From Bacteroidales bacterium (GTDB lineage: Bacteria; Bacteroidota; Bacteroidia; Bacteroidales; UBA7960): a DNA stretch of 33,929 nt. Made by a program: the position numbers and the translations under genes. The notes under the pieces were generated by a model that saw only the letters and a program-made list of their open reading frames with translations, ran no database searches and had not been told where the DNA came from. This document shows positions 990 to 28,267 of the stretch, in pieces. Position 1 is the first letter of the stretch, and the number at the start of each line of letters is the position of its first letter. The stretch lies in the NCBI GenBank assembly GCA_007129355.1, contig SKVR01000001.1, positions 1 to 33,929 on the forward strand. Direction: 5' to 3'.

Positions 990-3500
990 TTATCTTATCA
1001 GCATTTTCTGAGAAATTACTTCATCAGAATAAAATTGCACTGTATATAGTCCGGCAGGTAATTGCGGCAAATTTACTGAAGTGATATTCCTTGCACTTAA
1101 AACTGAAGAATAGATTGTCCTGCCCTGCATATCGAAAATTCGCCATTCAATATCCCGGTCACCCTGGTAATCGATACGAAAGTTTCCATTGTTGGGATTG
1201 GGATAAAGAGTGAAGTGTTCTTCCGAATTCGTTTCTGTATATATACTAACGGGTGTAAAATATTCGAAGCTACCGTCATAATCGGATTGTTTCAGACGAT
1301 AATAGGAAATTCCTGCAATGGGGTCGGTATCCCTGGCAGAATAATATTGTGACTGACTGGTGGTGCCTGAACCATTCACGAAAGTAAGAACCTCCCATGA
1401 TTTTCCATTGGTACTTCTTTCAACCGTAAAAAAGTCATTATTGATCTCGGCAGCTGTTGCCCATTCAATAAGAATCTCCCGGTTGTTTTGTTGTTTTGCA
1501 TCGAAGGAAAGCAGCGATATGGGCAAGGGATCATCAGAGCTTCCTGCTGTCCATCGGCTGAAGCTTTCAACCTGATGGGCAATGATTCTTTTGCCAGAGG
1601 CATCCACTTCAGCTGGCACCCAAATCCATTCTATACCGGGATAGTAATCATGTCCTACGCTTTTGAAAAGTGAAAAATTGGCCGATTCATCATACAGATT
1701 CAGCTCCCCGGTATAATAGTGAAATATTATGGTTGCATCAAGATTTTCATTAAACTCCGGAATAATGTCGAACCATCTGAGAATGCTGCGTGACTCGTCT
1801 GAATAGTTTAGTTCACTGTGACCTCTTCTGATTGTGGTATTTCCCAGTTCTTGTGATGATTCAATTTCAAGACCTATACCACTGATATTTCCTGAAGGAT
1901 TGTTGAGGTAACGGACCATTTCAATATATCCGCTTGTACCAAAAATTCTTGATGAACTATTGACTGATTCAAATTCCCTAAGTTCTGCATTTTCGCCCAG
2001 GAAAATCCGGTGGCCATTGAGATCAAGCAAACCGTTATCCATTTTTAACTGACCATTTACGTAAATATCTCCTGTAAGTTTTACGTTGTTATTATTTTTA
2101 ATTGTAAGGTTATCAAATACCAGATTCGACAAAGTCTGTGTGGTACTACCAACCATTTCAACAACACCTTCTCCTCCAATTCTTGCCGTAATGGAGTTAC
2201 TCACCAACTGACCTGTAATGGTTAAAACCGAATGATTGGAAAGCATTAGTTCAGCATTGCCTTCAATTATAAGCATATGCAGGCTCTCGTTATAAGGCAG
2301 CAATGGATATACTTCTGAAGAAAAAGGAATCATAACCACCGAACCCGATGGGGGCACTGAAACTAAATTCCAGTTGTTAATAATGGACCAATCGGTACTA
2401 TTGCCCTCAGGTGTCCATACCCATATATTTTCGGGGTTATATACATCAATCAGAACCGGATACCTATCGTTTTCATCTTCAAAGAATTGCCAGGTAGAGA
2501 TAAAATCCCATCCATCGTAATTCTGCTGGTCTTTCATTTGCTCTGTGGTAAGTCCTTTACCCCCTGCACTGGTAGCCTGCCCCGAAGTGGTAATATCCCA
2601 GTAACAATTGTTAACAGTTCCGGCATTTCCGCCAACACCTCTCATCCCTACTAATCCACCAATGTGTGATACGGGATCCATTACATTCACCGTACCTGTT
2701 GAATAGGAGTTGATGATAAACCCGCGCAATTCAACGCATCCAGCCAGGCCACCCACACGCGTTCCTCCAGGAACACTGACAGAACTTCTTGAATACGAAT
2801 TGCTTATCAAACCCTTTTGATTACATCCTACAAGACCTCCAAATTTGTCCTTGCCGCTGGCAGTTGTGGTCCTTAATAAAACATTTACCCTCGACCAGCT
2901 CTTGTCTATTATGGGCCTGAAACTTTCGGAAGCACCGGCATTATCTATATAACTATTGTTAGAACCAACCAGTCCGCCTGTTGCTCCATCGCCACCAACA
3001 GTTCCCAGGTATACATAACAATTTTCTATCCGGGTATTTTGGTTTCCGGTAACTCTTCCTACGAGGGCACCGGTACCTCTGCCTCCTGCAACATATACAT
3101 TAGTTAACCCAAGATTTTTTATGGTGGTAGCGCCATCTCCATCTTCACCTATATGACCAAACAAACCCACATTGGAGATTCCACCTCTGTATATATTCAA
3201 ATTTTTTATCACATGACCATTGCCATCATAATGTCCGGTAAACCTCAGTGATGAACCACCACCGCCGATAGGAGCCCAATTGGGAAATGTATTATTGGGG
3301 GGTTTGCTGAAATCAATGTCATTATCCTGACGAAAATAACTGTCCGGAAAATTTCTGACATTGTTAAGATGGCTGGCATCCAGAATTATATATGGATCGG
3401 CTTCAGTACCGCTACCACTAGCAAACTGACTGTATGCCAGCATATTGGGAACAACAACAAAAACAAAAACTGCTATCAGGGATGTGAAAAACTTTTTCAT
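990..3500 (-). CDS. Exported GLUG-repeat protein with T9SS sorting domain
   Basis: An 836-residue secreted protein. Residues 1-24 are a Sec signal peptide (MKKFF start, long hydrophobic core). Residues about 45-300 hold GLUG-type beta-helix units: VGLFGHIGE near 111, then GALVGRV near 144, GGLVGSN near 175, GGLVGCN near 221, GGLAGCV near 250 and GGLVGMR near 281. A middle beta-rich region (about 355-560) resembles T9SS cargo stalks. Near residue 655 comes LPISLLSFDA, the usual lead-in to an Ig-like module of these proteins. The last ~75 residues (FTLYPNPNNGNF..., ending KMLIR) form a type A T9SS C-terminal domain. It is probably carried across the outer membrane and anchored or released at the surface. 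GLUG repeats occur in adhesins and peptidase-associated proteins; no enzymatic motif is visible, so the substrate is unknown. Confidence 0.85.
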   Translation of the reverse strand: MKKFFTSLIAVFVFVVVPNMLAYSQFASGSGTEADPYIILDASHLNNVRNFPDSYFRQDNDIDFSKPPNNTFPNWAPIGGGGSSLRFTGHYDGNGHVIKNLNIYRGGISNVGLFGHIGEDGDGATTIKNLGLTNVYVAGGRGTGALVGRVTGNQNTRIENCYVYLGTVGGDGATGGLVGSNNSYIDNAGASESFRPIIDKSWSRVNVLLRTTTASGKDKFGGLVGCNQKGLISNSYSRSSVSVPGGTRVGGLAGCVELRGFIINSYSTGTVNVMDPVSHIGGLVGMRGVGGNAGTVNNCYWDITTSGQATSAGGKGLTTEQMKDQQNYDGWDFISTWQFFEDENDRYPVLIDVYNPENIWVWTPEGNSTDWSIINNWNLVSVPPSGSVVMIPFSSEVYPLLPYNESLHMLIIEGNAELMLSNHSVLTITGQLVSNSITARIGGEGVVEMVGSTTQTLSNLVFDNLTIKNNNNVKLTGDIYVNGQLKMDNGLLDLNGHRIFLGENAELREFESVNSSSRIFGTSGYIEMVRYLNNPSGNISGIGLEIESSQELGNTTIRRGHSELNYSDESRSILRWFDIIPEFNENLDATIIFHYYTGELNLYDESANFSLFKSVGHDYYPGIEWIWVPAEVDASGKRIIAHQVESFSRWTAGSSDDPLPISLLSFDAKQQNNREILIEWATAAEINNDFFTVERSTNGKSWEVLTFVNGSGTTSQSQYYSARDTDPIAGISYYRLKQSDYDGSFEYFTPVSIYTETNSEEHFTLYPNPNNGNFRIDYQGDRDIEWRIFDMQGRTIYSSVLSARNITSVNLPQLPAGLYTVQFYSDEVISQKMLIR

Positions 3501-7568: not shown

Positions 7569-8282
7569 ATGCAAAAAAAACTTTTATTAATCAGTAACTC
7601 AACGAACTACGGGGAAAAATATCTGGCTTACACCCTGAAATATATTTCAGCTTTTCTGGGTAAAGACATTCGCAACATTGCCTTTGTCCCTTACGCTGCA
7701 GTAGATATATCCTATGTAGAATACACCAACCAGGTGAACGATGTTTTTTCTGAGCTTGGATATTCTGTGAAATCCACTGAAGACATTCAGGGACCGCAGA
7801 AAGTAATAGAGAATTCTGATGCAATTGTAATTGGTGGTGGTAATACTTTTCATCTCATACATTATATGCATGAGAAGGGTTTGATGGATATTATCACAAA
7901 AAAAGTTGAAAACGGCACCCCTTTCATAGGATGGAGTGCAGGAAGCAATGTTGCCTGCCCCACCATAAAAACCACCAATGACATGCCTGTTATTCAACCC
8001 TCAAGCTTTGATGCACTCTCGCTGGTTCCTTTCCAGATTAATCCGCATTATACCGATGGTCGTATTCTCAATCATAATGGTGAAAGTCGTGAAGAACGGA
8101 TCAGGGAATTCCTGGAGCTCAATCCTCAAATGACTGTAGTCGGATTAAAAGAAGGTTCCATGCTGCAAATAGAGGGCGATACCGTGAAACTTCTGGGGAA
8201 TAAAACTCTGAAGGTTTTCCGCAAAGATCAACCAACGCTTGAATACGACCCCAGCACATCACTTGATTTTATTCTAAAATAA
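7569..8282 (+). CDS. pepE: Peptidase E, alpha-aspartyl dipeptidase (family S51)
   Basis: A cytoplasmic serine peptidase of 237 residues that hydrolyses dipeptides with N-terminal aspartate. It aligns along its length with enterobacterial PepE: LLLISNSTNYG at the N-terminus, IVIGGGNTFHL (87-97), the nucleophile elbow GWSAGSN with Ser123, TTNDMP with Asp138, and INPHY with His160. All three residues are shifted by +3 from the known E. coli triad (Ser120, Asp135, His157), so the active site looks intact. Family S51 also contains cyanophycinase, but the TTNDMP and FDAL motifs are of PepE type. A good promoter lies at 7492-7524 and a terminator at 8305-8343. The next gene, on the same strand, is a cyanophycin-synthetase-like protein, an association that may be meaningful because such polymers are made of aspartyl bonds. 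Confidence 0.92.
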   Translation: MQKKLLLISNSTNYGEKYLAYTLKYISAFLGKDIRNIAFVPYAAVDISYVEYTNQVNDVFSELGYSVKSTEDIQGPQKVIENSDAIVIGGGNTFHLIHYMHEKGLMDIITKKVENGTPFIGWSAGSNVACPTIKTTNDMPVIQPSSFDALSLVPFQINPHYTDGRILNHNGESREERIREFLELNPQMTVVGLKEGSMLQIEGDTVKLLGNKTLKVFRKDQPTLEYDPSTSLDFILK

Positions 8283-8304: not shown

Positions 8305-8346
8305 AATCCCATACTTGCTATATTTGCATAGTATGGGGTTTTTATT
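8305..8346 (+). terminator. Terminator after pepE with an embedded -7 box
   Basis: AATCCCATACT (8305-8315) pairs with AGTATGGGGTT (8330-8340), 11 pairs including one G-U, around a 14-nt loop and followed by a run of T (8339-8343). This is a good intrinsic terminator for pepE. The loop region includes TATATTTG (8319-8326), a perfect TAnnTTTG, which could be the -7 box of the next gene, with transcription starting about 55-60 nt before the ATG at 8390. A clear -33 element is not seen. Confidence 0.6.
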
Positions 8347-8389: not shown

Positions 8390-11131
8390 ATGAACTTTAG
8401 TCCGGATAACTTGCCGGATTTCTATCCGGTAAAAGGTCCCTTGAAGATTTCAGGATTACAGGCTCTGCATGGTGCCGGTTATTACAGTGCCGGACCGGTA
8501 ATAATCATGCAACTGAATCTTGGAAAATTTGATGAGGTATTTACCAATAACATAGATGGGTTTTTTGAAAAGCTAAAAGATAAACTTCCCGGTCTTGAAG
8601 AGCACCGATGCAGCGAAGGAGAAACCGGTGGCTTTTTCTCCAGGGTTAAAGATGGAACACTGCTGGGGCATGTGGCCGAGCATATAGCCATTGAGTTGCA
8701 AACACTTGCCGGAATGAATGTAAGCTTTGGTAAAACCCGCAGTACAGGGCAAAAGGGAATTTATAACGTTGTTTTCCGGTTTCATACTGAGGAAGCCGGA
8801 TTATTTGCTGCCCATGCGAGTATTGATATCCTGAACAGAATCCTTACTAAAAAAGAAACAAACATTGGTTTGTTTATTGATGATTTAAATCGTATAAGGC
8901 AAAAAAATGAGCTGAACCCGGGTACCCTTGCCATTGTGAATGAAGCGCGTGAGAGAAACATACCTGTAATTCATCTCGATTCATATAATATGATTCAATT
9001 AGGAACCGGAAAATTTCAGAAACGGTTCCGCAATTCCATTACATCCGACACACCACTAATGGCAGCTGAGAATTCGCAGGATGCATTTCTTAACACACTC
9101 ATGCTGGCAAATGCCGGAATACCTGTTGCAAAAACCATGAAAACAGGTAACGTGGAGGATGCAATAGCTTTCTGGAAAAGCTTAAATAGGCCGGTAACAC
9201 TAAAAACAAAGAATAAAAGAAATACATGTATTTTTCCAGCACTCAACAACCCCGAAATTATTCAATCAGCCTTTCTTCTGTGCAAAAATTATAGTGATGA
9301 TATACTGGTGCAGGAACAAATACCAGGCATAACCAATCGCCTGCTTATCATTGATAACAAGTTTGTGGCTGCGAGCCTGTTACAACAACCCGAGATTATA
9401 GGAAACGGTACGGACAATATTGCCCGGCTCATAGAGAAACTCAATGATGATCAGAATCGTCAACCCGAAAAAAAAGGTAGTCTTGAAGTGCTTCAACCCA
9501 GCGATGAAATGCTTGAAAATCTTTCCTTTTACGGTTTTTCGCTTAATGATGTGCCTGACGATGGAGTTAAGATTCTATTAAGTAATAACCCAACCATTCA
9601 AAGTGGCGTGCTTCCTGCCGACGTCACGGGGATAGTTCACCCTCTTAATCGAGCTATTGCTGAACGTGTTGCAGAAATAAGCGGGTTAAAGGTTGCTGGA
9701 GTAAATATGGTATGTGCTGACATAAGCAAGCCTGTTGAAGACATACAGGGTGCTGTTATAGATGTTGATCCGTCACCGGATATTCGTATACACCTCAGCC
9801 CTTGGAAGGGTAAAAGCAGAGATGTTGCTGCACCTTTTGTGAATATGCTTTTCCCTGAAAATACTCCTTCCAGAATTCCTGTTGTTTCCATAGCAGGTTC
9901 AGCCGGAAAATCTGTATGTGCATACCTTATCAGTTTTATGCTTGAAAAGGAAGGTTATCAAACCGGACTGGCACATTCTGATGGAATTTTTATGGGTGGC
10001 CGGCGCATTATCCGTGAAGATATGGCAAATTACCATGCAGCACAACTGATCCTGAAAGATCCTGGAGTAGAATGTGCTGTGCTCGAAACCTCCTTTGAGA
10101 GTATCTTAACCCACGGGCTTGGATATGATTTTGCTGATATTGGTATAGTACTCAACGTGCATTCTCAACATCTGAACAATAATTATATCAGAAATACCGA
10201 CGATCTTGCTTATGCAAAATCAGTGGTGGCAGAGGAGGTTTATCGCGAGGGTTTCTCTATCCTGAATGCCGATGACCCGCTGGTTTTAAAAATGTCAGAA
10301 CGTATATACAGCAAACCGGTTTTTTTTACCCACGACACTGAAAATCCTGATTTCCGTAAGCATTGTTTGCGTGGCGGAACAGGAGCAGGAAAGGAGAACA
10401 ATGAACTTTTTCTCTGGACAAGCGGAGGCAAAAACCGTATTGCCGGCCTGGATGAAATTCCCCTTTGGGCAAATGGCAAAAACGATATTCTACTTGATTC
10501 GATTCTGGCAGCCATTTGTGCAATGACAGCCTTCGATATGCGCCCCGACCGAATCAGCCATTTACTTAAAACTTTCAAACCTGCATCAGCTAGTCTGCAT
10601 GGTAGACTTATGACGCTTTTCCCCGGCCAGAATACTGTAATAATTGATAAACCAGCCGGGCCCATCGCACTGAAAAATTTAAAAGAAAAATTGTTTGAGA
10701 ATCAGGTAAACCAAGAGGTTTTTATAGACCTGAGCGGAGAATTACCGGATGATTTCTGGATAAATTTTTTAAATGTTTTTAAAAATGATAAAATTCTGGT
10801 GAACCTGTTTTTTTCGCAAAACGAAGATTTCAGAGGTGATAAATCAAATAAGAAGGATTATAGCAGTAATAATATCATTCTCACATTGAAAGAACGTTAT
10901 AAAAAAGCCCCCACCCTTCACCAGAATATGAATGAGAATGAAATAATAAATCATATTAAAACCAAGGCTGATAAAGAGTCTTTTAAAAACTATGTATTTG
11001 TTTTTTGGGAAAAACCTGAAGAATGTATAAAACAACTTGAAAGACAGGAAAAACCTGCAACATTTTTCATTTTCAGCTGGAACTTCAGGCATCTGCATCA
11101 ATTGATCAGCCAAAATCTTATTATTTTGTAA
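8390..11131 (+). CDS. Cyanophycin synthetase-like protein with degenerate catalytic sites
   Basis: A 913-residue protein with the three-part layout of CphA1. The N domain (about 1-190) is well kept: LHGAGYYSAGPVIIM, EHRCSEGETGGFFSR (71-85), GTLLGHVAEHIAIELQ (89-104), FGKTRSTGQKGIYNVVF. The ATP-grasp part (about 220-465) has lost the glycine-rich ATP loop (TLKTKNKRNTC where CphA has IKPLDGNHGRG), the DH of the SDHR motif, and the EVN metal motif (DVDPSPD, 458-464). The Mur-ligase part keeps a P-loop-like GSAGKS and NADDPL (626-631) but lacks the DNTG and RGG motifs, and DYAHNP is replaced by DKPAGP. The last ~100 residues are Lys/Asn-rich and match nothing I know. The ATG at 8390 is chosen because earlier starts (TTG 8315, ATG 8333) lie in the pepE terminator. 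It may be a pseudoenzyme; active synthesis is doubtful. Confidence 0.85.
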   Translation: MNFSPDNLPDFYPVKGPLKISGLQALHGAGYYSAGPVIIMQLNLGKFDEVFTNNIDGFFEKLKDKLPGLEEHRCSEGETGGFFSRVKDGTLLGHVAEHIAIELQTLAGMNVSFGKTRSTGQKGIYNVVFRFHTEEAGLFAAHASIDILNRILTKKETNIGLFIDDLNRIRQKNELNPGTLAIVNEARERNIPVIHLDSYNMIQLGTGKFQKRFRNSITSDTPLMAAENSQDAFLNTLMLANAGIPVAKTMKTGNVEDAIAFWKSLNRPVTLKTKNKRNTCIFPALNNPEIIQSAFLLCKNYSDDILVQEQIPGITNRLLIIDNKFVAASLLQQPEIIGNGTDNIARLIEKLNDDQNRQPEKKGSLEVLQPSDEMLENLSFYGFSLNDVPDDGVKILLSNNPTIQSGVLPADVTGIVHPLNRAIAERVAEISGLKVAGVNMVCADISKPVEDIQGAVIDVDPSPDIRIHLSPWKGKSRDVAAPFVNMLFPENTPSRIPVVSIAGSAGKSVCAYLISFMLEKEGYQTGLAHSDGIFMGGRRIIREDMANYHAAQLILKDPGVECAVLETSFESILTHGLGYDFADIGIVLNVHSQHLNNNYIRNTDDLAYAKSVVAEEVYREGFSILNADDPLVLKMSERIYSKPVFFTHDTENPDFRKHCLRGGTGAGKENNELFLWTSGGKNRIAGLDEIPLWANGKNDILLDSILAAICAMTAFDMRPDRISHLLKTFKPASASLHGRLMTLFPGQNTVIIDKPAGPIALKNLKEKLFENQVNQEVFIDLSGELPDDFWINFLNVFKNDKILVNLFFSQNEDFRGDKSNKKDYSSNNIILTLKERYKKAPTLHQNMNENEIINHIKTKADKESFKNYVFVFWEKPEECIKQLERQEKPATFFIFSWNFRHLHQLISQNLIIL

Positions 11132-13225: not shown

Positions 13226-14797
13226 ATGGATAAAATTGACCTTCAGGAATTTGAAAGCAAGCTAAAAGTAAGAAACCTGCAAATTGAAGATTTTGATACC
13301 CTGATACGCATGCAAAAAATATGCTTCCCTTCAATGCAAACCTGGAGTAGGGAGAACATTGAAAATCAGTTGCGTATTTTCCCCGATGGACAAATTGTAA
13401 TAGAAATAGACGGTATGCTTGTGGCAACTTCTTCAAGTCTGATAATCGACTCGGAGGATCTTGATTTGGACAAAAACTGGGATGAAATTTGCGATAATGG
13501 GAATATTGGAACCCATGATCCTGAAGGGGATACACTTTACGGTATGGAGATTATGGTTCATCCGGAATATAGAGGTATGAAACTGGCTACCCGGCTTTAT
13601 GAAGCTCGCAAGGAACTGGCCAGAGAACGTAATCTCATGCGAATCGTAATCGGTGGCAGACTACCTGGATACAGAAATTACAAAGATAAGCTCAGTATCA
13701 ATCAATATGTTGACAGAGTTACAAGTAAAGCCATTTTCGACCCAGTGCTCACACCCCAGCTTTCCAATGGTTTCTCGCTGAAGAAAGTAATCAGGGAGTA
13801 CCTGGATGAGGACAAAGAATCAGGTGGATTTGCCACCTACCTGGAATGGGCCAACTTTGATTACCGACAGGAAAAAGACCGAAAGTTCCTTGCGTCGCTG
13901 CCCATGCGTATTTGCGTGGTTCAATATCAGATGCGACCCATTCGAAGTTTCGATGACTTTGCAGTGCAGTGCGAATATTTCGTTGATGTTGCTTCCGGAT
14001 ATAAGAGTGACTTTGTTTTGTTTCCCGAGATTTTTACACTTCAGTTATTATCGCTGTTTCCCAAAGAAAACCCGGGTACTGCTGCACGTAAAATCGGAGA
14101 ATTTACAGAACAATACCTTGAGCTATTCAGCGAACTTTCCATAAAATACAATATCAATATCGTTGCTGGTTCGCACTTTACACCCGAAGACGACAAGCTT
14201 TACAACATTGCATATCTCTTTAAGCGAAATGGCGAAATAGGAAAGCAATACAAACTGCACATTACCCCCAATGAAAAGAAGTGGTGGGGTGTTGAACCGG
14301 GCCGTAATATAGAAGTTTTTGACACTGATAAAGGTAAAATTGCCATTCAGATATGCTATGACATAGAATTTCCTGAAGTTGCCCGTATAGCGGTAGAAAG
14401 AGGCGCCAGAATCATATTTGTTCCTTTTTGTACCGACGACAGGCAAGGCTACCTTAGGGTAAGGTATTGCGCCCAGGCACGTTGTGTTGAAAACCAGATT
14501 TTTGTTGCTATTGCCGGTACGGTGGGTAACCTGCCACAGGTTGATAATATGGATATCCAGTATGCACAATCAGGGATTTTTACTCCTTCTGACTTCTCAT
14601 TTGCACGCGATGCCATTGCGGCAGAGTGCACCCCAAACGTAGAAACCGTGATCATCAATGACATAGATCTTGAACTATTGAAACGCCACAGAAACCGCGG
14701 AACCGTTACTAACTGGAATGATCGCCGCACGGATATTTACCGTGTTCAGGCACTTGATCATGATATGGAACGACACGAACCCCAGAATCCCTATTGA
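13226..14797 (+). CDS. Bifunctional GNAT acetyltransferase / nitrilase-family hydrolase (YhcX-like)
   Basis: A cytoplasmic fusion of 523 residues. Residues about 12-215 are a GNAT domain with the acetyl-CoA motif around VHPEYRGMKLATRLYEA (111-127). Residues about 226-510 are a carbon-nitrogen hydrolase domain with the expected triad: Glu268 (LFPE), Lys343 (KQYKLH) and Cys377 (QICYDIEFPE). The same two-domain layout and length are known for Bacillus YhcX-like proteins, so this is an established architecture, not a new fusion. The natural substrate is uncertain; such enzymes hydrolyse amides or nitriles, and the GNAT half may acylate a related amine. Last gene of the DUF4831-SDR operon. Two hairpins follow the stop, but neither has a strong T-run. 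Confidence 0.9.
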   Translation: MDKIDLQEFESKLKVRNLQIEDFDTLIRMQKICFPSMQTWSRENIENQLRIFPDGQIVIEIDGMLVATSSSLIIDSEDLDLDKNWDEICDNGNIGTHDPEGDTLYGMEIMVHPEYRGMKLATRLYEARKELARERNLMRIVIGGRLPGYRNYKDKLSINQYVDRVTSKAIFDPVLTPQLSNGFSLKKVIREYLDEDKESGGFATYLEWANFDYRQEKDRKFLASLPMRICVVQYQMRPIRSFDDFAVQCEYFVDVASGYKSDFVLFPEIFTLQLLSLFPKENPGTAARKIGEFTEQYLELFSELSIKYNINIVAGSHFTPEDDKLYNIAYLFKRNGEIGKQYKLHITPNEKKWWGVEPGRNIEVFDTDKGKIAIQICYDIEFPEVARIAVERGARIIFVPFCTDDRQGYLRVRYCAQARCVENQIFVAIAGTVGNLPQVDNMDIQYAQSGIFTPSDFSFARDAIAAECTPNVETVIINDIDLELLKRHRNRGTVTNWNDRRTDIYRVQALDHDMERHEPQNPY

Positions 14798-19076: not shown

Positions 19077-22000
19077 TCAGAACCATCTCACAAGTTTAAG
19101 ATCCTGACGATGTGCAAGTAATTCGTGTTTGGGGAACATGCGGAAGGCATAATTATAAATACCTACTCTTTTGGTGGTAACTTCACAACGGAATGTAACC
19201 TTACCGTTTTCCCTTTTCAGTTGATCCATTTCATAAACCGAAATTATGGATTCTTCGCCTTCTAAATTTTTCTGAATAAAAACAACTTCAACACCAAAAT
19301 CCGATTCATTCAGTTCATTGAGATCAAGAACCAGCTCTGCAATAAACTTATCTCCAAGGAGGAGTGAGTTATCAGCAGTATTCATCAGGTTGATAGATAC
19401 AAGTTCGATGCTTTCCCATCCACGGGTTATTATTGATTTCCAGTGTGCCAGTTCTCTTGAGCGATCGCATTCTTCGGCCAGCATAATATCAGCCCGCCTG
19501 AACAATTTATTGTAAAAGAATTTGAAGTAGTCATCCATCATACGTTTATTGGTAAAATGAGGAGCAATTTTTGCAATATTGTTCTTCACCCATCTTATCC
19601 ATTCAACAGGAATGCCATTTTTGTTCCTGTCATAAAACATAGGGATGATTTCATTTTCGAACGTATTATATAATATTTCGGCATCCAGTTCATCCTGGTA
19701 AGCCTGATTATCGTATGTTTTCTCCTCTTTAATGGCCCAACCGGCTTCAGGTGTATATCCTTCTGCCCACCATCCGTCAAGAACACTAAAATTCATTACT
19801 CCGTTAATTGCGGCTTTCTGACCTGAAGTTCCGGAAGCCTCCAACGGACGAGTAGGTGTATTCAACCACATATCAACCCCCTTAACCAGTGCTTCACCCA
19901 GTTCCATATCATAGTCTTCCAGGAAGATGATCTTACCCCTGAATTCCTTCATTTTGGAAACTTCAATGATATGCTTGATCAGATCCTGACCTGCTTTATC
20001 AGCAGGGTGAGCTTTTCCGGCATAAAGAAACTGAACAGGCATGTCAGGATTGTTAACGATACGCGATAATTTCTCCAGGTCATTAAAGAGCAGGTGTGCG
20101 CGCTTATAAGTGGCAAAACGACGAGCAAAACCTATGGTGAGTGCTTTTTCATCAAGCGCATCAAGCACCTGGTATACCTTTTTGGGTGTTTCCTGCCGGC
20201 GCGAAAGATTTGACAAAAGACGTTTCTTGATATATTCCATTAGCTTTTGCCTTTGCAACTGACGCATTTCCCATATTTTTTCATCAGGCAGATCATAAAT
20301 CTTTTCCCAATGAGCTGGGTCAGAAACATCATTAAAAAAGTCGTTTCCATAAGTATCGGCATAAAGTTTCTGCCACTCCGGGGCACACCAGGTGCCGTAA
20401 TGAACTCCATTGGTAACATAACCGATATGAACTTCATCGGCAAAATAACCCGGGTAAAGATCTTTAAACATATCGCGTGATACGGCACCATGAATTTTAC
20501 TTACACCATTCACTTCCGATGCGAGTTTCGCGGCAAGCACACTCATAGAGTAGCGATCTTCAGGATTGTCAGGATGAATTTTACCAAGCGACATAAACGT
20601 TTCCCATTTAACTCCGAGCCTGTCAGCATAATGAGGCATATAAGTTCTGAGCATGTCTTCACTAAAGAAATCATGACCTGCCGGAACAGGAGTATGAGTT
20701 GTGAATAAGCTGCTTGCTCTAACAGCTTCCATGGCTTCCAGGAAACTGAGTTTACGATCCTGAACAAACTTTCTGAGTCTTTCAAGACCTGCAAAGGCAG
20801 CATGTCCTTCATTCAAATGGTAAACTTTGGGCTTGATACCTAGTGCATCCAGCAAACGGATACCACCAATACCCAGCAGAAACTCCTGCTTAAACCGGTT
20901 TTCCCAATCACCACCATAAAGCTGATGAGTTACAACCTTATCAATAGATACATTTTCAGGAATATCTGTATCCAGCAAATAAAGCGGAATACGACCCACA
21001 TCAATTTTCCAAATCTTGGCGAAAATATTACGACCAGGGAATGCGATGCTGATTTTTACCCATTCTCCCATTTCATTGCGAACGGGCTGGGCCGACATGT
21101 AGGTAAAGTTATGAGAATTATAGTTGGCAAGCTGTTCGCCGCTGATGGAAAGATTCTGACTGAAATATCCGTATCGGTATAACAATCCAATACCTACCAT
21201 ATCAATGTTATCATCACTTGCCTGTTTGAGAAAATCACCTGCTAAAACTCCCAGTCCACCCGAGTATATTTTCACTGAAGTATGTAATCCATATTCCATA
21301 CTGAAGTATGCTATTGTATCAGAAGTTTTTTTCTCCGCTTTCTGCATATAGTCATCAAACATTTTTACTACACGCTTATACTCCTGCATAAACTCCTTAT
21401 CTAAAATCAATTTCTGATAATGCTCAACAGTTAGATTATCGAGCAGCCGGGGCGGGCTTTTTTCAACCCTTTCCCACAACTCGGGATCAATGCGTTCAAA
21501 AAGTAAGGCAGCATCATAGTTCCATGTCCACCAGAGATTTTTTGAAAGCTTTTGAAGATCTTCCAGTTCTTTTGGAACATTTATCTCTATCAGGATTTTT
21601 TTCCATTTGGGTTTGGAAGCTTTTGCCTTGTATAATTCATGAGGTTTAACAGGCTGTTTCTTTGTTTTAAAAAGTTCCGACCTCTGTTTAACCTTTTTGA
21701 TGGTTAAATCAAAAACTTTAAAATAATTTTCAGCCAATGTATCCCAGAGCGCTGATTTTGATATTTGATTTGCCCTTTCGCGCAGGGGAATCATGCTTTT
21801 GTGTGCGAGCGTATTGAAACCTTCATCCTCGCCTGTTAATTGTCCGAATTCATCATCAGAGATAAGGGACAGAATAATCTCTGAAATATTATCTGACACC
21901 TGTTGTCGATTATAGTCATTCCTTTCCACAACTGCTACGCTACGGTAATCATCAGGGAAATTATCTCTTGCCCATATTCCAAAACCGGCAAGGGATGTGG

Positions 22001-23366
22001 TAACCGTAGGCACATGGTAAGCAAGACTTTCAAGTGGTGTATAGCCCCAAGGTTCATAATAGGAAGGGAAAATACTAAGATCCATTCCTATAAGTGCGTC
22101 ATAATAATCCAGGTTAAGTGCGCCATCATCGCCATTTAGATATGAAGGAATGAAAACTACCTTCACCCTATCATCAGGACTGTTGTTAAGTCCTGTGTTT
22201 TTGAGATGCTTTAATATGGGGTCAGAGTCAGGATCGACCAGCTTATGAGTGGTGTATTCTCCGGTCAAAGGTTTTTTGAAATCCGGTTTTTGGATTCTAT
22301 TGACTACTTCAGGTCGAATACCGGTTTGGTTTGCCGGAACCATAATAAAAGCAATCACGGGAGTTTTAAGGTTTTTCTTGTTTACTCTGTCCAAAGCATC
22401 TAAAAAGACATCAATTCCTTTATTTTTAAACTCATACCGACCACTATTAATCAGCAGCAGGCTGTTCTCAGGAATTTCCTGGTTTAACAGGCCTGATGCC
22501 ATTTCAAGAAGTTGTTTTCTTGATTTTTTGCGCCTGGATGAAAAATCTCCTTCCTCAGGCACAAAAGAATCATTAAAGCCATTGGGGGCTATTATATCAA
22601 CCTCTTTATCCAGTATTTTATGACACTCTTTGGCGGCTATCTTGCTTACCGTAATAAACGCATCGGCATTGACAGATGCTGTTTTTTCCATACTGTGTTT
22701 TGAAACGACAGCTAACTCAATGGCACGGGCATCAGCGTCAAAATGACCCATTTCAGAATACAAATGATGGCCGTTTCCTGCGATAGAACGTCCCAAAGAT
22801 GTGGCATGAGTTGCGAAAATTGTACCCACCTGGGGTACTCTGTCTTTCAGGTATAAAACCCCTGAACCCGTCATCCACTCATGAAAATTAGCGAGTATAG
22901 TATCTCTGTAAGAAAGATGATAATCGTAGAAACTTTCGATTACCTGTCCGGCAGCATAACCAAACATGGTAGGCTCAGTATAATCCCATTGACCACTGAG
23001 AGAATTCAGTCCAAACTTCATCCAGAAATCTGTAAATATTTTGTCCTTATCTGAGAAAAGTGGTGTAAAATCAACCAGGATTGCAATGGGGGAGCCTGGG
23101 ATATTCCAACGGCCTATTCTGAAATGTAATCCATCCTTGGTAGCTTTTTTGCGCCATGATCTGTAAAGATATTTGTCTTCTATAAATTCAGGGTTGCCAT
23201 GTGTTTCCTTCCATACATCCGGACCAATACACATGTAATTGTCGTTCATATCATTAACCATTGACAATGCTTTTGTGCTGATAACTGTATGAATTCCTCC
23301 AATCTTATTACATACTTCCCAACTTACTTCGAATAAATAATCAGGCTTTTTAATATTTTCTGTCAT
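19077..23366 (-). CDS. Glycogen synthase (GT3) - alpha-glucan phosphorylase (GT35) fusion
   Basis: A 1429-residue cytoplasmic fusion. Residues about 1-560 form a GT3 glycogen synthase of the eukaryote-like type: FEVSWEVCNKIGGIHTVI near the start, HEWMTGSGVLYLK and HATSLGRSIAG in the acceptor half, and the nucleotide-sugar motif YYEPWGYTPLE with the EX7E pair Glu438/Glu446. A Lys-rich linker (about 560-600) leads to a short-type glucan phosphorylase: NLWWTWNYDA near 610, AYFSMEYGLH, HLNEGHAAF, TTHTPVPAGHD, TNGVHYGTW, and the PLP site EASGTSGQKAAINGV with Lys1184. One chain thus carries opposite reactions: chain extension from a nucleotide sugar and release of glucose-1-phosphate. Similar fusions are, to my knowledge, found in other Bacteroidota. 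It follows the GH57-GT4-debranching operon but has its own transcript, as terminators flank it. Confidence 0.92.
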   Translation of the reverse strand: MTENIKKPDYLFEVSWEVCNKIGGIHTVISTKALSMVNDMNDNYMCIGPDVWKETHGNPEFIEDKYLYRSWRKKATKDGLHFRIGRWNIPGSPIAILVDFTPLFSDKDKIFTDFWMKFGLNSLSGQWDYTEPTMFGYAAGQVIESFYDYHLSYRDTILANFHEWMTGSGVLYLKDRVPQVGTIFATHATSLGRSIAGNGHHLYSEMGHFDADARAIELAVVSKHSMEKTASVNADAFITVSKIAAKECHKILDKEVDIIAPNGFNDSFVPEEGDFSSRRKKSRKQLLEMASGLLNQEIPENSLLLINSGRYEFKNKGIDVFLDALDRVNKKNLKTPVIAFIMVPANQTGIRPEVVNRIQKPDFKKPLTGEYTTHKLVDPDSDPILKHLKNTGLNNSPDDRVKVVFIPSYLNGDDGALNLDYYDALIGMDLSIFPSYYEPWGYTPLESLAYHVPTVTTSLAGFGIWARDNFPDDYRSVAVVERNDYNRQQVSDNISEIILSLISDDEFGQLTGEDEGFNTLAHKSMIPLRERANQISKSALWDTLAENYFKVFDLTIKKVKQRSELFKTKKQPVKPHELYKAKASKPKWKKILIEINVPKELEDLQKLSKNLWWTWNYDAALLFERIDPELWERVEKSPPRLLDNLTVEHYQKLILDKEFMQEYKRVVKMFDDYMQKAEKKTSDTIAYFSMEYGLHTSVKIYSGGLGVLAGDFLKQASDDNIDMVGIGLLYRYGYFSQNLSISGEQLANYNSHNFTYMSAQPVRNEMGEWVKISIAFPGRNIFAKIWKIDVGRIPLYLLDTDIPENVSIDKVVTHQLYGGDWENRFKQEFLLGIGGIRLLDALGIKPKVYHLNEGHAAFAGLERLRKFVQDRKLSFLEAMEAVRASSLFTTHTPVPAGHDFFSEDMLRTYMPHYADRLGVKWETFMSLGKIHPDNPEDRYSMSVLAAKLASEVNGVSKIHGAVSRDMFKDLYPGYFADEVHIGYVTNGVHYGTWCAPEWQKLYADTYGNDFFNDVSDPAHWEKIYDLPDEKIWEMRQLQRQKLMEYIKKRLLSNLSRRQETPKKVYQVLDALDEKALTIGFARRFATYKRAHLLFNDLEKLSRIVNNPDMPVQFLYAGKAHPADKAGQDLIKHIIEVSKMKEFRGKIIFLEDYDMELGEALVKGVDMWLNTPTRPLEASGTSGQKAAINGVMNFSVLDGWWAEGYTPEAGWAIKEEKTYDNQAYQDELDAEILYNTFENEIIPMFYDRNKNGIPVEWIRWVKNNIAKIAPHFTNKRMMDDYFKFFYNKLFRRADIMLAEECDRSRELAHWKSIITRGWESIELVSINLMNTADNSLLLGDKFIAELVLDLNELNESDFGVEVVFIQKNLEGEESIISVYEMDQLKRENGKVTFRCEVTTKRVGIYNYAFRMFPKHELLAHRQDLKLVRWF

Positions 23367-23510
23367 ATTTCAATTTTTAAAAAATTATCTTTTATTTCCA
23401 AAAAACGAACGAAATTACAAAAATTTCATCAATAGAATTCAGCTAAAATCTTTGCTAACGTTTGCGTTCGTCTTAATTAACAAAAAAATTACATTTTTGC
23501 TGCTTCGGTT

Positions 23511-23550
23511 AAAAAAATCCTGTGTGAAAATTAACACACAGGATTTTTTT
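23511..23550 (-). terminator. Strong bidirectional terminator of the debranching-GT4-GH57 operon
   Basis: A perfect 16-bp inverted repeat: seven A then ATCC-type arm AATCCTGTGTG (23516-23526) and its complement CACACAGGATT (23535-23545) plus seven T to 23550, with an 8-nt loop. Either strand gives a hairpin followed by a T-run. It lies 34 nt after the GH57 stop and ends that operon before the GT3-GT35 gene. Confidence 0.9.
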
Positions 23551-23584
23551 GTTTTATACTTTAACAATTATAAATTATGAAAGT

Positions 23585-24904
23585 TTATTTTTTAGCAGAA
23601 TCGCCGTCCTTTTTCCGGGCAACAGGTTTTTTAGCTGTTTTACCTGGTTTTTCTGCAACTTTTTTTGATACTTTTTTACGGCCTGAGGTTTTAGCAGCAG
23701 TTACCTTTGTTTTACCTTCGCAGTTTTTTTTCACCCTGATCTCAAAATCTGCCAGTACATTCATGTAGTTTATAAAAGCATCGTAGGGCGAATTATAAGG
23801 ATTGAAGTTTTTTGTCACAGTGCCATCGGAAAACCATTTGGTTGACATATAATAAAAGTGATCACTTACCTGCAATTTCTCCCAGTCACTTAGCATTCCC
23901 TTATCTTCGCAGGTATTAACCTTTTCTTCCAGATCATAAAGTTTATTGAAAGCTTCATTTTGCATTTCATTTCCCAGCCATGCTGTTATATCCCTTTCTT
24001 CATCTGCCCATGAAATGGGATAAGGAATATGCAGAGGAGATGCAGGTTGTAGCAATGCAGCCACATCTGAAGGGGTTTTAAAAACAAATCTTGATTTATC
24101 GAAAACAACCTGTGGTAATAATTTCAGAAAATCAAAAATACCTGTTTCTTTCTTATGGTTCTCTCCAAATGTTTCGTAATCCATAAACAGATTTACAACT
24201 TCAGTTTTGGAGTCTAACGCATTGAGCCAACCGGTAAACTTTTCAGCAGTAAGAGGCCATTCGCTCCAGTTTCTTACTGAAAAACGGAATGCAATATCAT
24301 CAGACAGCTGGAAGTTTTTCATCAGCAATTTCACTTTTGGATTGGAAGCACTGCAATATAAAAGATTGGGACTTTTCCAACCCAGGATATGCTTGGGACC
24401 TTCAGTAATTACTGTATTATAGCCAAGTTCAAAAATATGGTTACCAATATCATCATTGTAAATAAGCTCAGTATTTCGAAAAGCTTTAGGTTTAACTCCA
24501 AACAGCATTTTGATTTTGGTTTCATGAAGTTTTACCTGCCTGAAAAACTCCTGTTTGCTTTTCAGTGAAGCCAGACTGTGACCATAAGTTTCAGCAAGAA
24601 ACTCCACATTTCCGGTAGAAGCAAGTTGTTTAAAACTATCAATAACTTCAGGGGTGAACTTTTCCATTTGTTCGAGAGCAACTCCGGAAATACTGAAACT
24701 CACCCTGAACTTGTTTCCGAATTTTTTTATCAATCCCAAAAGAATCTCATTGGCAGGCAGATAACTCTTTTCTGCAAGCTGTTGCATAATGAACCTGTTG
24801 GCATACTCATCAAAATAATCATGTTTATGGCCAATATCGAAAAAACGATAATTTCTTAACCTGAAAGGCTGATGAATCTGAAAGTAAAAACAAATTGACT
24901 TCAT
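23585..24904 (-). CDS. Glycoside hydrolase family 57 alpha-amylase-type enzyme
   Basis: A cytoplasmic alpha-glucan-active enzyme of 439 residues with the five GH57 regions: HQPF (11-14), GNVEFLAETYGHS (98-110), the nucleophile region AFRNTELIY with Glu146, the acid/base region FMDYETFGENH with Asp242, and ISWADEERDITAWLGN (297-312). It belongs to the short amylase-like branch; the length is below that of GH57 branching enzymes (about 520 or more), so branching activity is less likely but not excluded. The last ~48 residues (392-439) are a basic tail with 17 lysines, two arginines and many Ala/Thr/Pro, like histone H1 or AlgP tails. Third gene of the debranching-GT4-GH57 operon; 87 nt separate it from GT4. 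Confidence 0.9.
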   Translation of the reverse strand: MKSICFYFQIHQPFRLRNYRFFDIGHKHDYFDEYANRFIMQQLAEKSYLPANEILLGLIKKFGNKFRVSFSISGVALEQMEKFTPEVIDSFKQLASTGNVEFLAETYGHSLASLKSKQEFFRQVKLHETKIKMLFGVKPKAFRNTELIYNDDIGNHIFELGYNTVITEGPKHILGWKSPNLLYCSASNPKVKLLMKNFQLSDDIAFRFSVRNWSEWPLTAEKFTGWLNALDSKTEVVNLFMDYETFGENHKKETGIFDFLKLLPQVVFDKSRFVFKTPSDVAALLQPASPLHIPYPISWADEERDITAWLGNEMQNEAFNKLYDLEEKVNTCEDKGMLSDWEKLQVSDHFYYMSTKWFSDGTVTKNFNPYNSPYDAFINYMNVLADFEIRVKKNCEGKTKVTAAKTSGRKKVSKKVAEKPGKTAKKPVARKKDGDSAKK

Positions 24905-24991
24905 ATTTCTTCCTTGTTAGGCCCACAGAATTAGCAGGCAGATTTGTTATTTTTTCTTTTTTTTTCTTAAAAACCTGTTTTTATTTTGAAA

Positions 24992-26281
24992 TCAGCTTTG
25001 CCGGAGAAATTCCTGGTAAATTTCTTTTACCTTTTCTCCCGCCTGATCCCATTTGATATTATCTACTTCTTCCTTTCCATATTTCTTAAAGGTTTCAGGA
25101 AGAGCATTGTAATGCAGCAAACCATAGATGGCATCTGCCATGGCATCAATATCCCAGAAATCGACCTTGATGGCATGTTTAAGCACTTCAGCCACACCCG
25201 ATTGTTTAGAAATAATAACCGGAACATTTGATCTCATTGCCTCCAATGGGGAAATACCAAAAGGCTCTGATACAGAAGGCATTACATAAACATCACTTAT
25301 GGCAAACATCTTATCCACATCATCGCCCTTAAGGAATCCTGTAAAATGAAACTTGTTGGAGATTCCGAGTTTGGCTACCCTTCTGATCATTTTATTGAGC
25401 ATATCGCCACTGCCTGCCATAACAAAACGAACATTATCGTCGCGCTGCAGCACCTTATAGGCCGCTTCAATAAAATACTCAGGTCCTTTCTGAAAAGTTA
25501 TACGACCCAGGAAAGTGACGATCTTTTCATCAAGATGTCTTTTGATTTCCAGGTCCTTTTCTGTTTGTGGGGGCTCAACACCATTATGAACAGTAACAAC
25601 TTTGTCGGGATGAATTCCATATCGGTTTATAACGATACTCCTGGTCATATGGCTCACGGCAATTACCTTATCGGCAGCTTCCATTCCGGCCCGTTCAATA
25701 TTGTATACCTGCTTATTAACACTTTCTCCTGATCGGTCGAACTCAGTGGCATGCATATGCACGACCAGAGGTTTTCCGGTAATCCTTTTGGCTTCTTTAC
25801 CTGCCATATAGGTTAGCCAGTCATGTGAGTGAATAAGGTCAAAATCGTGCTCACGAGCTATGGAAACGGCAACCATTGCATATCTTTTCACTTCCTCGAG
25901 CAGATTTTTCCCGTAACCTCCGGAAAACTCAAACTTACTGGAGTGAATACTGCCCTTTTCGGCAGTAAATCCTTTTTGGGTATTTTCAATGATGCGGAAA
26001 TATTCTTCTTCTGTGGCATAGGGAACCAGCTGTGAATCCACTTCTAAATAAGACATTTTATCAAGGTATTCTTTGAAAACTTCGTCCTGAATATCGATGG
26101 ATATGTCGCTGGCATTTACCAGGCGAATACTACCGGGTTTTTCGTCGCCATATGCTTTAGGCACCACAAAAATCAAATCAACACCGCATTTTAACAAGGC
26201 CTTGGTAAGACCATAACTTGCGGTACCCAACCCCCCTGAGATATGAGGCGGAAATTCCCATCCAAACATTAAAACCTTCAT
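24992..26281 (-). CDS. GT4 family glycosyltransferase, probable alpha-glucan synthase
   Basis: A 429-residue GT-B glycosyltransferase. The N-terminal MKVLMFGWEFPPHISGGLGT is the nucleotide-sugar glycine loop typical of glucan-synthase-like GT4 proteins; HSHDWLTYMAGK follows, then VSHMTRSIV and KVVTVHNGVEP in the middle. In the C-terminal domain GRITFQKGPEYFIEA and the motif SEPFGISPLEAM with Glu339/Glu347 (EX7E) mark the donor site. Position between debranching enzyme and GH57 amylase suggests alpha-1,4-glucan or maltose-1-phosphate synthesis, but the donor (ADP- or UDP-glucose) cannot be read. It starts 42 nt after the debranching gene. A second synthase, GT3, lies in the same locus. Confidence 0.85.
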   Translation of the reverse strand: MKVLMFGWEFPPHISGGLGTASYGLTKALLKCGVDLIFVVPKAYGDEKPGSIRLVNASDISIDIQDEVFKEYLDKMSYLEVDSQLVPYATEEEYFRIIENTQKGFTAEKGSIHSSKFEFSGGYGKNLLEEVKRYAMVAVSIAREHDFDLIHSHDWLTYMAGKEAKRITGKPLVVHMHATEFDRSGESVNKQVYNIERAGMEAADKVIAVSHMTRSIVINRYGIHPDKVVTVHNGVEPPQTEKDLEIKRHLDEKIVTFLGRITFQKGPEYFIEAAYKVLQRDDNVRFVMAGSGDMLNKMIRRVAKLGISNKFHFTGFLKGDDVDKMFAISDVYVMPSVSEPFGISPLEAMRSNVPVIISKQSGVAEVLKHAIKVDFWDIDAMADAIYGLLHYNALPETFKKYGKEEVDNIKWDQAGEKVKEIYQEFLRQS

Positions 26282-26323
26282 TTCTTATCCTTATTAATTG
26301 TGCGCTTTATTTAAAACCTGCTT

Positions 26324-28267
26324 TTATTTTTTACTTTTCGTTATCATGTCATTTATTCTGAGCAACTCCGCCACGTTGGCCGAAAAGGAGATGGCCCCCC
26401 TGCTTTGGTGGGGTGGATCACCTTCATACAATTCAGATATGGTTCCGATACCATCATCGGTCATATCTTCCTGGAAGTTATCATATATTTCCTGAAGGAA
26501 ATCTAAAACACTTTCTTTATAGATTTTCAAATATGCATCAGCAAAATGGCCCAGCAGCCATGGATAAACCGTTCCCTGATGGAGAGCAATATCCCTTTTC
26601 ATTTCATTGCCTTTGTAGCGGCCTTTGTAATAAGGATCGTCAGGAGAAAGAGTACGTAATCCTTTGGGTGTAAGAAGATTCTTTAAAACAGTATCAAGAA
26701 TATGTCGCGAAATAGAGGCTGATACCGGGCTATAGGGCAACGAAGCTGCTATAACCTGGTTCGGACGAACGCTCCACTCTGCCTGATCCACAGCCACGTA
26801 ATCGGCTAAATAACCTTTTTCTTCGTTCCAGAAAACCTTTTCAAACGACTCCGGTATTTTATCGGCTATGGATTTCCATTTGGCAGTGAAAGACTTGTCT
26901 TGAGCAAGTTTTGCAAGCTCAAGGGCAAACATAATAGCATTATACCATAGCGCATTTACTTCAACCACATATCCGTACCGCGGGGTAACAGGATTTCCGT
27001 TAACTATAGCATTCATCCAGGTTACAGCAGGGTGATCTTCATTGATATAAAGCAAACCATTATCATCCATCTTCAACAGATGATTACCGTTTTTATAACT
27101 TTCAAGAATAGTTTTGATTGCATTGCCATATAATTTCCAGGCTTTAACCTGATCTTTTCCCTGGCAACAGCATTGCTGAATTGCCCAAACAAACCATAGT
27201 GATGTATCAGCAGAATTAAAGCGGGTACTTTCTCCTCTTCCTGTTTCAGGGAAAAACGGGCCAACCATCTGGCTGACCATTGTATCTAGAACATTCCGGC
27301 AGGCTTCATCATTTCCTTTGGCCAGAGATAATCCCGGAAGTGACATAAAAGTATATCTTCCTACCCTGTCGTACCAGGGATAACCTGCGATAATGTCTGT
27401 TTGCCCATCATGATGATAAAAAAACTGCTCGGCAGAATTAAGCAAACAATTTTGATATGAATTCCTTGGTGTGCGTAATTTTAATTCATAATTGAAGTTT
27501 CTGGAAATAAGGGTGGGTTTGATTTCCTGTGTACCGGCACAGAAGATCACACTCTCCCCTTTTTTGATGGGAAACTCAAAGAAGCCCGGCACATAAAGAT
27601 CCTCAAGATACTCATAACCACGATCCTTTTCATGAAAATACTCCAGATCATTATACCAGTCAGGTGAATGAACATACTCAACTTTTGATTTTGAAAACTG
27701 CATAAACAGCGGAGAGTAACCGTCATACATGCGTGTTTTTATACCATTGGGCACATTCTCATATTTGGTATCCAGATAAATATTCTTTTTGCTCAGGCTA
27801 TGGATATTTCTGAAAGCCAGAAATGGTTTAATTCGAAGAGTTGTGTTCGACTGTGCCTCAACCAGAGTATAACGTATCATTACCTTTTCTTCCTCGGTTA
27901 CAAACAGGGTTTCCTTTGTTAAAACAACCCCACCGACCCGGTAAGTTACTTTCGGGATGAAATCAGCTGAAAAATCTCTGACATATTTATGACCCTTGGG
28001 ATTATAGGTATTAGGGAAACGATTGATTCCAATATTGAATTCAGCATCACGTTGAATGATGGTTTCATCCAGTTTGGAAAGCAGAACGTGGACGGTGTTT
28101 CCCAGTAAAGGCTGATGGCAGATCAATAGCCCGTGATACTTGCGGGTATTGCATCCTATTATGGTATTACATGAAAAGGCACCTGCACGGTTGCTGCGAA
28201 GCATCTCTTTGGGCAGAGAATATTCCAGGTTAATAAGTTGAGTTTTGTCAAATTTTATGAAGCCCAT
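26324..28267 (-). CDS. Glycogen debranching enzyme (GH133, amylo-alpha-1,6-glucosidase type)
   Basis: A 647-residue enzyme that cleaves alpha-1,6 branch points. The N-terminal domain has SNRAGAFSCNTIIGCNTRKYHGLL (family hallmark NTRKYHGLL at 40-48). The (alpha/alpha)6 part shows YPWYDRVGRYTFMSLPGLSL, the acidic motif FNSADTSLWF with Asp354, VRPNQVIAASLP, HQGTVYPWLLGHF and a terminal GTISELYEGDPPHQSRGAI with Glu612. These are the conserved motifs of bacterial GDE-like enzymes. The family also holds related (alpha/alpha)6 hydrolases, but neighbours support glycogen work. First gene of the operon, with a -7 box candidate at 28328-28335. Confidence 0.93.
   Translation of the reverse strand: MGFIKFDKTQLINLEYSLPKEMLRSNRAGAFSCNTIIGCNTRKYHGLLICHQPLLGNTVHVLLSKLDETIIQRDAEFNIGINRFPNTYNPKGHKYVRDFSADFIPKVTYRVGGVVLTKETLFVTEEEKVMIRYTLVEAQSNTTLRIKPFLAFRNIHSLSKKNIYLDTKYENVPNGIKTRMYDGYSPLFMQFSKSKVEYVHSPDWYNDLEYFHEKDRGYEYLEDLYVPGFFEFPIKKGESVIFCAGTQEIKPTLISRNFNYELKLRTPRNSYQNCLLNSAEQFFYHHDGQTDIIAGYPWYDRVGRYTFMSLPGLSLAKGNDEACRNVLDTMVSQMVGPFFPETGRGESTRFNSADTSLWFVWAIQQCCCQGKDQVKAWKLYGNAIKTILESYKNGNHLLKMDDNGLLYINEDHPAVTWMNAIVNGNPVTPRYGYVVEVNALWYNAIMFALELAKLAQDKSFTAKWKSIADKIPESFEKVFWNEEKGYLADYVAVDQAEWSVRPNQVIAASLPYSPVSASISRHILDTVLKNLLTPKGLRTLSPDDPYYKGRYKGNEMKRDIALHQGTVYPWLLGHFADAYLKIYKESVLDFLQEIYDNFQEDMTDDGIGTISELYEGDPPHQSRGAISFSANVAELLRINDMITKSKK

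Follow-up and report, generated by a model that had tools for sequence, protein, structure and literature searches.

What can a protein do that has the length and fold of the cyanophycin synthetase CphA1, when many of the residues with which that enzyme builds its polymer are replaced? The question is raised by an open reading frame at 8390..11131 on the forward strand of a 33,929-nucleotide stretch of a Bacteroidales genome (assembly GCA_007129355.1, contig SKVR01000001.1), which is called the window here. With a confidence a little above even we take the encoded protein to be a CphA1 descendant that has given up synthesis and would act as a chain-binding endo-cyanophycinase, supplying a CphA2-like enzyme in trans with primers or chain ends. 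In the following, class B denotes the CphA1-derived group to which the window gene belongs and class C the CphA2-like paralogues; residue numbers and roles are those reported for SuCphA1 and TeCphA1 in PMC9262961 and PMC9427784, and all parts of the gene lie on the forward strand.

The reading frame begins with ATG at 8390, its stop codon ends at 11131, and it encodes 913 amino acids; a TTG at 8315 offers an alternative start that would add 25 amino acids. An earlier note, made from the letters of this DNA alone, had called the product a full-length relative of cyanophycin synthetase, and this is borne out by TIGR02068, which aligns over positions 1-860 of its 862 with 701.1 bits, below the equivalog cut-off of 850. 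Together with the tree and the predicted fold described below, this match marks the gene as a non-canonical cyanophycin synthetase homologue of class B. In Pfam the window protein had two matches, to the CphA N domain with 142.4 bits (PF18921) and to the Mur middle domain with 45.6 bits (PF08245), and it gave no match to ATP-grasp or to the Mur C-terminal domain; the canonical CphA1 of a congener (G011) scored for all four. The comparison of a predicted structure with CphA1, as the note had suggested, gave SuCphA1 E82Q (7txv_A) as the best match of an AlphaFold2 model (mean predicted local distance difference test score, pLDDT, 83.8; predicted template modelling score 0.78), with a Z of 49.8, a root-mean-square deviation of 5.8 and 852 residues aligned. 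By this model the fold is that of CphA1 and, with the span of the TIGR02068 match, the full architecture of N domain, G domain and Mur part is present. Since the 29-row input alignment of the model consisted mostly of CphA1s, the match checks the architecture and is no independent proof of it.

The N domain (residues ~18-175, 8441..8914, placed by PF18921 and column conservation) is a chain-binding and metallopeptidase-like domain; the near-textbook strings that the earlier note had quoted from it are indeed found in the window protein. Its zinc-site motif Cx19HxxEH is complete (C74-x19-H94xxE97H98, with H72 beside it, 8609..8683), as seen in the alignment; the role of the site is taken from PMC9262961, where it is reported in 83% of CphA1s and described as a cryptic third site, a peptidase within an active synthetase. 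According to the same study, cyanophycin is cleaved by the SuCphA1 N domain, with tetramers as the preferred product. Among class B N domains the motif was complete in 31 of 32 (genus 7/8, sister genus 1/1, others 23/23), among CphA1s in 77 of 82 and among class C proteins in none of 30. The single class B exception is a truncated copy (L019, G011:C56) in which Gly replaces the catalytic Glu (E82), in a genome that carries a separate canonical CphA1 (L035, G011:C108); this loss fits a relaxed need for the site beside a canonical enzyme, as one case. Two positions of the Mur core reported to touch the chain bound at the N site point in the same direction: S603 is found in 29 of the 34 class B rows that have a residue at the position (genus 6/9, sister genus 2/2, others 21/23) and E607 in 33 of 34 (8/9, 2/2 and 23/23), as against Ser at 603 in 29 and Glu at 607 in 52 of the 82 CphA1s. 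As a separate observation, a terminator-like hairpin of nine pairs lies within the N-domain coding region (8775-8800, forward strand); a scan for promoters and terminators gave no clear excess over shuffled sequences (13 against a mean of 15.3 and 5 against a mean of 4.4).

The G domain (residues ~176-498, 8915..9883) has an ATP-grasp fold without the residues that bind the ATP phosphates, Mg2+ and Asp, as judged from the alignment and the missing ATP-grasp match. K220 is replaced by A232, R323 by L331, N394 by T402 and S396 by Q404, and in the metal region D431 has become N439, E450 D458 and N452 D460, both Mg2+-binding acids thus being replaced. The phosphate loop 263-269 is gone; residue mapping places the replaced segment at 9203..9232, starting at the retained K272, the equivalent of K261. 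In the Mur core (residues ~499-738, 9884..10603; PF08245 and alignment) the ATP-binding P-loop GSAGKS (residues 503-508, 9896..9913) is kept and D585 is replaced by Q593; H748 has become Ala, and the GDRR residues of the lid are lost. This lid (residues ~739-913, 10604..11128) is degenerate, the least conserved part of the protein, with pLDDT values of ~34-71 by block. The earlier note had listed the synthetic motifs as replaced, which holds for the ATP-grasp loop and for the metal and Mur residues; the His of its DHR motif is not diagnostic, as position 308 is Tyr, Phe or His (38, 26 and 16) across 80 canonical CphA1s. Its statement that only GSAGKS and NADDPL remain was too strong: the G domain keeps equivalents of K261, R309 and R458 and of E215, a contact to the chain, and the Mur part those of E558, H586, R731 and D745.

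Aligning the homologues, which the note had proposed as a check, revealed that these losses are common to the genus. Of its six full-length members five have lost K220, and none has kept the glycines of the phosphate loop, D431, E450, N452, R323 or N394; K261, R309 and E215 are retained in six and R458 in five. The Mur part retains K499 and E558, has lost D585 and H748 and has Ser for T500 and T522, each in 6/6. By comparison, 79 to 82 of 82 CphA1s possess K220, D431, E450, N452 and the ATP-grasp loop. When columns conserved in at least 95% of the 82 CphA1s were counted as kept if found in at least five of the six full-length members, the N domain kept 28 of 35, the G domain 50 of 91, the Mur core 33 of 64 and the lid 3 of 18, and the difference between the N domain and the other regions was significant when columns are treated as independent (Fisher p = 0.0013). 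As R309, E215 and R458 are kept and the ATP, metal and Asp residues are lost, contacts to the polymer end appear to remain and the handling of ATP, metal and Asp by the G domain appears to be lost. The proposal of the earlier note that the protein binds or trims the polymer rather than makes it therefore seems to fit, with a zinc site kept almost throughout class B and G and Mur chemistry lost in the genus.

Purifying selection speaks for a maintained protein. Where synonymous divergence (dS) could be estimated by the Nei-Gojobori method (7 of 24 comparisons were saturated, dS = -1, and were excluded, and in many others dS exceeded 1), the ratio of nonsynonymous to synonymous divergence (dN/dS) was 0.05-0.17 for the N domain, 0.09-0.12 for the G domain, 0.04-0.08 for the Mur core and 0.08-0.15 for the lid. 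Constraint thus extends over the whole protein, also over parts to which we can assign no more than a structural role. The residue losses are not damage of the assembly, since they are common to the genus and selection is purifying where it is measurable. A plain pseudogene, considered as a candidate, is not favoured with dN/dS values of 0.04-0.17.

How far does this group of proteins extend? In a quick tree search class B formed one side of a branch with a Shimodaira-Hasegawa-like approximate likelihood ratio support of 99, adjoining CphA1s of Fermentibacterota and Eiseniibacteriota, and class C stood apart with a support of 100; the tree was built without bootstrap from 61 hand-chosen rows (30 of class B, 19 of the 82 CphA1s and 12 of the 30 class C proteins) and leaves out six class B fragments or interrupted copies (L016, L018, L020, L034, L060 and L061). 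Among 59 relatives, orthologues were found in the genus of the window and in one sister genus. In a sample of 393 genomes of the order 29 had matches at E <= 1e-60; judged by identity, length and the sequences listed, 24 of these were taken as class B and 5 as CphA1, and 27 genomes with class C (E below 1e-120) were set apart. The whole matches in G300 and G118 each contained one stop, and single reading frames were taken instead. Of the 22 order loci L040-L061, 18 code for proteins of ~730-750 amino acids that have no lid, and a further two are fragments at contig edges. In a sample of 395 genomes of the phylum 48 had a match; apart from the window no match exceeded 36% identity to the class B query, and the 47 others, at 27-36%, were mostly frames of CphA1 length, as read from identity and length only. 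Outside Bacteroidota, class B was found in a metagenome-assembled genome (MAG) of Candidatus Muiribacteriota (locus L101), among the 80 loci listed in a wider contig scan that is no census. L102 and L103, first considered as class B, were moved to CphA1 by their motifs; in the tree they adjoin class B. The motif and residue counts leave out L094 (the class C copy of G337, which failed matching), class C copies lacking a locus, the repeats L068 and L095-L100, and the weak matches L021 and L022.

In the 21 other class B rows that were compared residue by residue (a set without L060, L061 and L067) D431, E450 and N452 are kept in 21/21 each and K220 in 20/21, and the Asp pocket is altered, with R323 changed to Leu in 20/21 and S396 to Arg or Lys in 19/21. 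Position 215 is Glu in all six full-length members of the genus and Glu or Asp in all 21 other rows. The decay of the ATP site is thus a step taken in the genus of the window, one that followed an earlier alteration of Asp binding, since most other class B proteins keep their ATP and Mg2+ residues. A very divergent class B relative of 699 amino acids (L067, G207:C32) keeps the zinc motif, K261, R309, D431 and R458 and has lost K220, E450, N452 and the lysine of the Mur P-loop; the same outcome may have been reached here a second time and separately, although its placement in the tree is unsure.

If the window protein cuts chains, which enzyme would use the pieces? The earlier note had considered a regulatory partner of a true synthetase encoded elsewhere. 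When all 23 candidates in the genome of the window were scored, none was a canonical CphA1, the next best being class C and pieces of Mur ligases or ATP-grasp proteins, so the idea was half right; what the genome does contain is a CphA2-like polymerase homologue of class C with 637 amino acids (G000:C311:7782-9695). A cyanophycinase, for which the note had suggested a search, lies on one side of it (TIGR02069, 203 bits, cut-off 126.6) and an isoaspartyl dipeptidase on the other (TIGR01975, 463.5 bits, cut-off 331.25). Against known structures the class C protein scores 428.7 bits with 7ta5 and 397.1 bits with 8fxh, both titled CphA2, and 195.2 bits with CphA1; by sequence it is nearer to CphA2 than to CphA1. 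All 30 class C proteins have K220, K261, R309, D431, E450 and N452 intact, a gap at D585 and H586, Lys at 267 and Phe at 458; around the latter two positions 7ta5 reads GHKG and PGIFMH, and 8fxh GHKG and PGVYMH. As an aside, class C was matched at two places in each of the sister-genus genomes G018 and G023.

Classes B and C also tend to occur together. In the order sample B was found in 24 genomes, C in 27 and both in 21 (Fisher p = 1.7e-26, kinship ignored); counted by hand, C is also present in 18 of the 20 genera with B among the 207 genera sampled. No CphA1 was found beside class B in the genomes of the order, each giving one match at threshold with at most two candidates per genome scored. 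Genes for cyanophycinase (cphB), class C, isoaspartyl dipeptidase (iadA) and class B follow each other in this order, closely packed on one strand, in L101 of Muiribacteriota and in G066:C176, and hence in two phyla; in G374:C218 B lies on the strand opposite to that of iadA and C, and in the genome of the window cphB, C and iadA stand together in an operon-like arrangement with B elsewhere. The upstream neighbour of class B in the window is pepE, a dipeptidase gene of family S51 (aspartyl dipeptidase; 7569..8282, forward strand; NF003642, 311 bits, cut-off 156). It lies directly upstream of B in all ten genus and sister-genus loci in which that side is covered, is also upstream of B in L041, L042, L045 and L067, loci of four other families, and lies together with B and cphB in L042 and L045, the latter with iadA too. 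The product of pepE may share the function of class B.

In our reading the N domain would hold a cyanophycin chain and, by slow cutting at its C-H-H zinc site, release short pieces of the form (beta-Asp-Arg)n. The dead but folded ATP-grasp G domain would bind the chain end rather than ligate, because the equivalents of E215, R309 and R458 stay. In trans, the short pieces would prime the CphA2-like enzyme of the cphB-cphA2-iadA cluster, which has no zinc site of its own, and they would also offer additional ends to the exo-acting cyanophycinase. The polymer would derive from salvaged beta-Asp-Arg dipeptides or from imported cyanophycin and not from free Arg, since the genome yielded no intact Mur domain of the Arg-adding kind. 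A CphA1 split into two proteins and using free Arg was rejected for now, both class B of the genus and class C being without the Arg-adding residues. A bolder form of the proposal, which we regard as rather doubtful, would see B and C as a divided cyanophycin machine: a polymerase with an active G domain, a dead N domain and no Arg ligase, and docked to it an ex-CphA1 with an active N domain and, in the genus, a dead G domain, which would give E215 in trans via the Gcore interface, hold the chain and cut primers. The four-gene module with cyanophycinase and isoaspartyl dipeptidase might then bank scavenged beta-Asp-Arg as polymer outside Cyanobacteria and without CphA1.

Several observations weigh against a role as primer-making endo-cyanophycinase. 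Purifying selection acts on every region where it is measurable and not on the N domain alone, and when the window is compared with L011 and L013 the highest identity falls in the Mur core; its P-loop part probably has some job that our proposal does not cover. The retention of the zinc motif is inherited and no new gain, because the motif is the norm in CphA1, and class B overall need not be non-synthetic, since most members outside the genus keep the ATP and Mg2+ residues of the G domain. Nor is the link to the partner strict: 3 of the 24 order genomes with B are without C and 6 of the 27 with C are without B, G009, G010 and G011 have class B and no class C detected, and class C occurs in three genomes of the phylum sample (one other family) with no class B match at 1e-60. 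A CphA1 could be missing from the assembly, which is 90.5% complete in 326 contigs. Finally, the class B copy of G023 is interrupted, and that of G011 is truncated with E82 lost.

Part of the evidence would also agree with a scaffold or allosteric subunit, in which B pairs with C through a Gcore-Gcore interface, lends it E215 in trans and keeps the chain tethered by the N domain of B, so that cutting is of no importance. E215 of TeCphA1 is reported to reach into the active site of the neighbouring subunit (PMC9427784), and in class B the position is kept as described although the nearby K220 is lost in five of six genus members; B and C co-occur and share clusters, and the Mur core is strongly conserved between the nearest species. 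Such a subunit would have no need for C59, H79, E82 and H83, yet these are near-invariant in class B, and we consider it unlikely. The conserved Mur core could also mean a ligase of altered specificity that uses the P-loop and ATP to attach a substrate other than Arg. K499 and E558 are kept and T500 and T522 changed to Ser throughout the full-length genus members, dN/dS is as low as 0.04-0.08 there, and the other class B proteins combine intact ATP and Mg2+ residues in the G domain with an Asp pocket altered at R323 and S396. Against this, the genus has uniformly lost D585 and H748, and SuCphA1 D585A H586A is reported to be M-inactive (PMC9262961); the GDRR residues are gone from the least conserved part of the protein, and most order loci have no lid. 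We therefore think a ligase quite improbable.

That the protein is an ordinary, divergent CphA1 which still makes cyanophycin through its altered residues might be argued from its full length, the shared fold (Z 49.8), the P-loop and the several contacts kept. This is hard to reconcile with the simultaneous loss of the ATP-grasp loop, K220, D431, E450 and N452, which nearly all CphA1s possess, with a score below the equivalog cut-off and with the separate canonical CphA1 of the congener G011, and we give it very little credence. Hardly more is to be said for a decaying relic without current function: the lid diverges fast and the copies of G023 and G011 are damaged, but dN/dS is well below 1 where estimable, the gene is full length in six genus members including the window, and pepE stands upstream in every covered locus of the genus and its sister.

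Further features of the window were noted apart from this gene. On the reverse strand, 19077-23366 encodes a fusion of 1429 amino acids in which a glycogen synthase (GT3) is combined with DUF3417 and with a glycogen/alpha-glucan phosphorylase, a building and a degrading enzyme in one chain, within a glucan cluster at 19077-28267 with GH57, GT4 and a debranching enzyme. A GNAT acetyltransferase fused to a carbon-nitrogen hydrolase is encoded at 13226-14797 (forward strand), and at 990-3500 (reverse strand) lies the gene of a protein of 836 amino acids that bears a GLUG motif and a sorting tail for type IX secretion.

Nature has apparently carried out a separation experiment here, in which a conserved lineage kept the cutting site and lost those for building. 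Annotation may well give such genes the name cyanophycin synthetase, and if our reading of the window protein as a primer-making endo-cyanophycinase is right, the storage capacity deduced from that label would be wrong for this genus. Close relatives of CphA2 occur in Bacteroidota and in one Muiribacteriota MAG and hence outside Cyanobacteria; CphA2s have been called specialised cyanobacterial enzymes (PMC9262961). Among the papers listed in literature searches, judged by titles and abstract openings, none dealt with a CphA2-like enzyme or a zinc-site-only CphA1 relative in Bacteroidota.

Compared with known systems, the window protein shares with CphA1 (SuCphA1, 7LG5 and 7TXV; TeCphA1, 7WAC-7WAE) the N-G-M fold, the Cx19HxxEH site with H57, R70, chain contacts and the Mur P-loop, and differs in being without the ATP-grasp loop, the Mg2+ acids and the residues for Asp binding and Arg ligation, and in scoring below the TIGR02068 cut-off. 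With 430 bits against CphA1 and 114.7 bits against CphA2 it has a homologous N-G-M start in common with the latter (7TA5, 8FXH/8FXI), but the arrangement is reversed: the N site is intact and the G domain seems dead, and the lid region is present though degenerate. CphB, a peptidase of family S51 encoded in the class C cluster, would share with the proposed role the degradation of cyanophycin. It works by serine-peptidase chemistry and its fold is unrelated to that of the window protein. CphB is described as exo-acting and releasing dipeptides (PMC10206079), and the cyanobacterial CphA2 as polymerising beta-Asp-Arg dipeptides (PMC10206079; PMC9262961). The closest functional parallel would be a construct of SuCphA1 with dead G and M domains, in which the N site alone works and which, together with the primer-dependent TmCphA1, gave primer-independent synthesis (PMC9262961). 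In that construct the synthetic sites were inactivated by point mutations, whereas in the window protein evolution would have done so, and the pieces would serve a CphA2-like partner.

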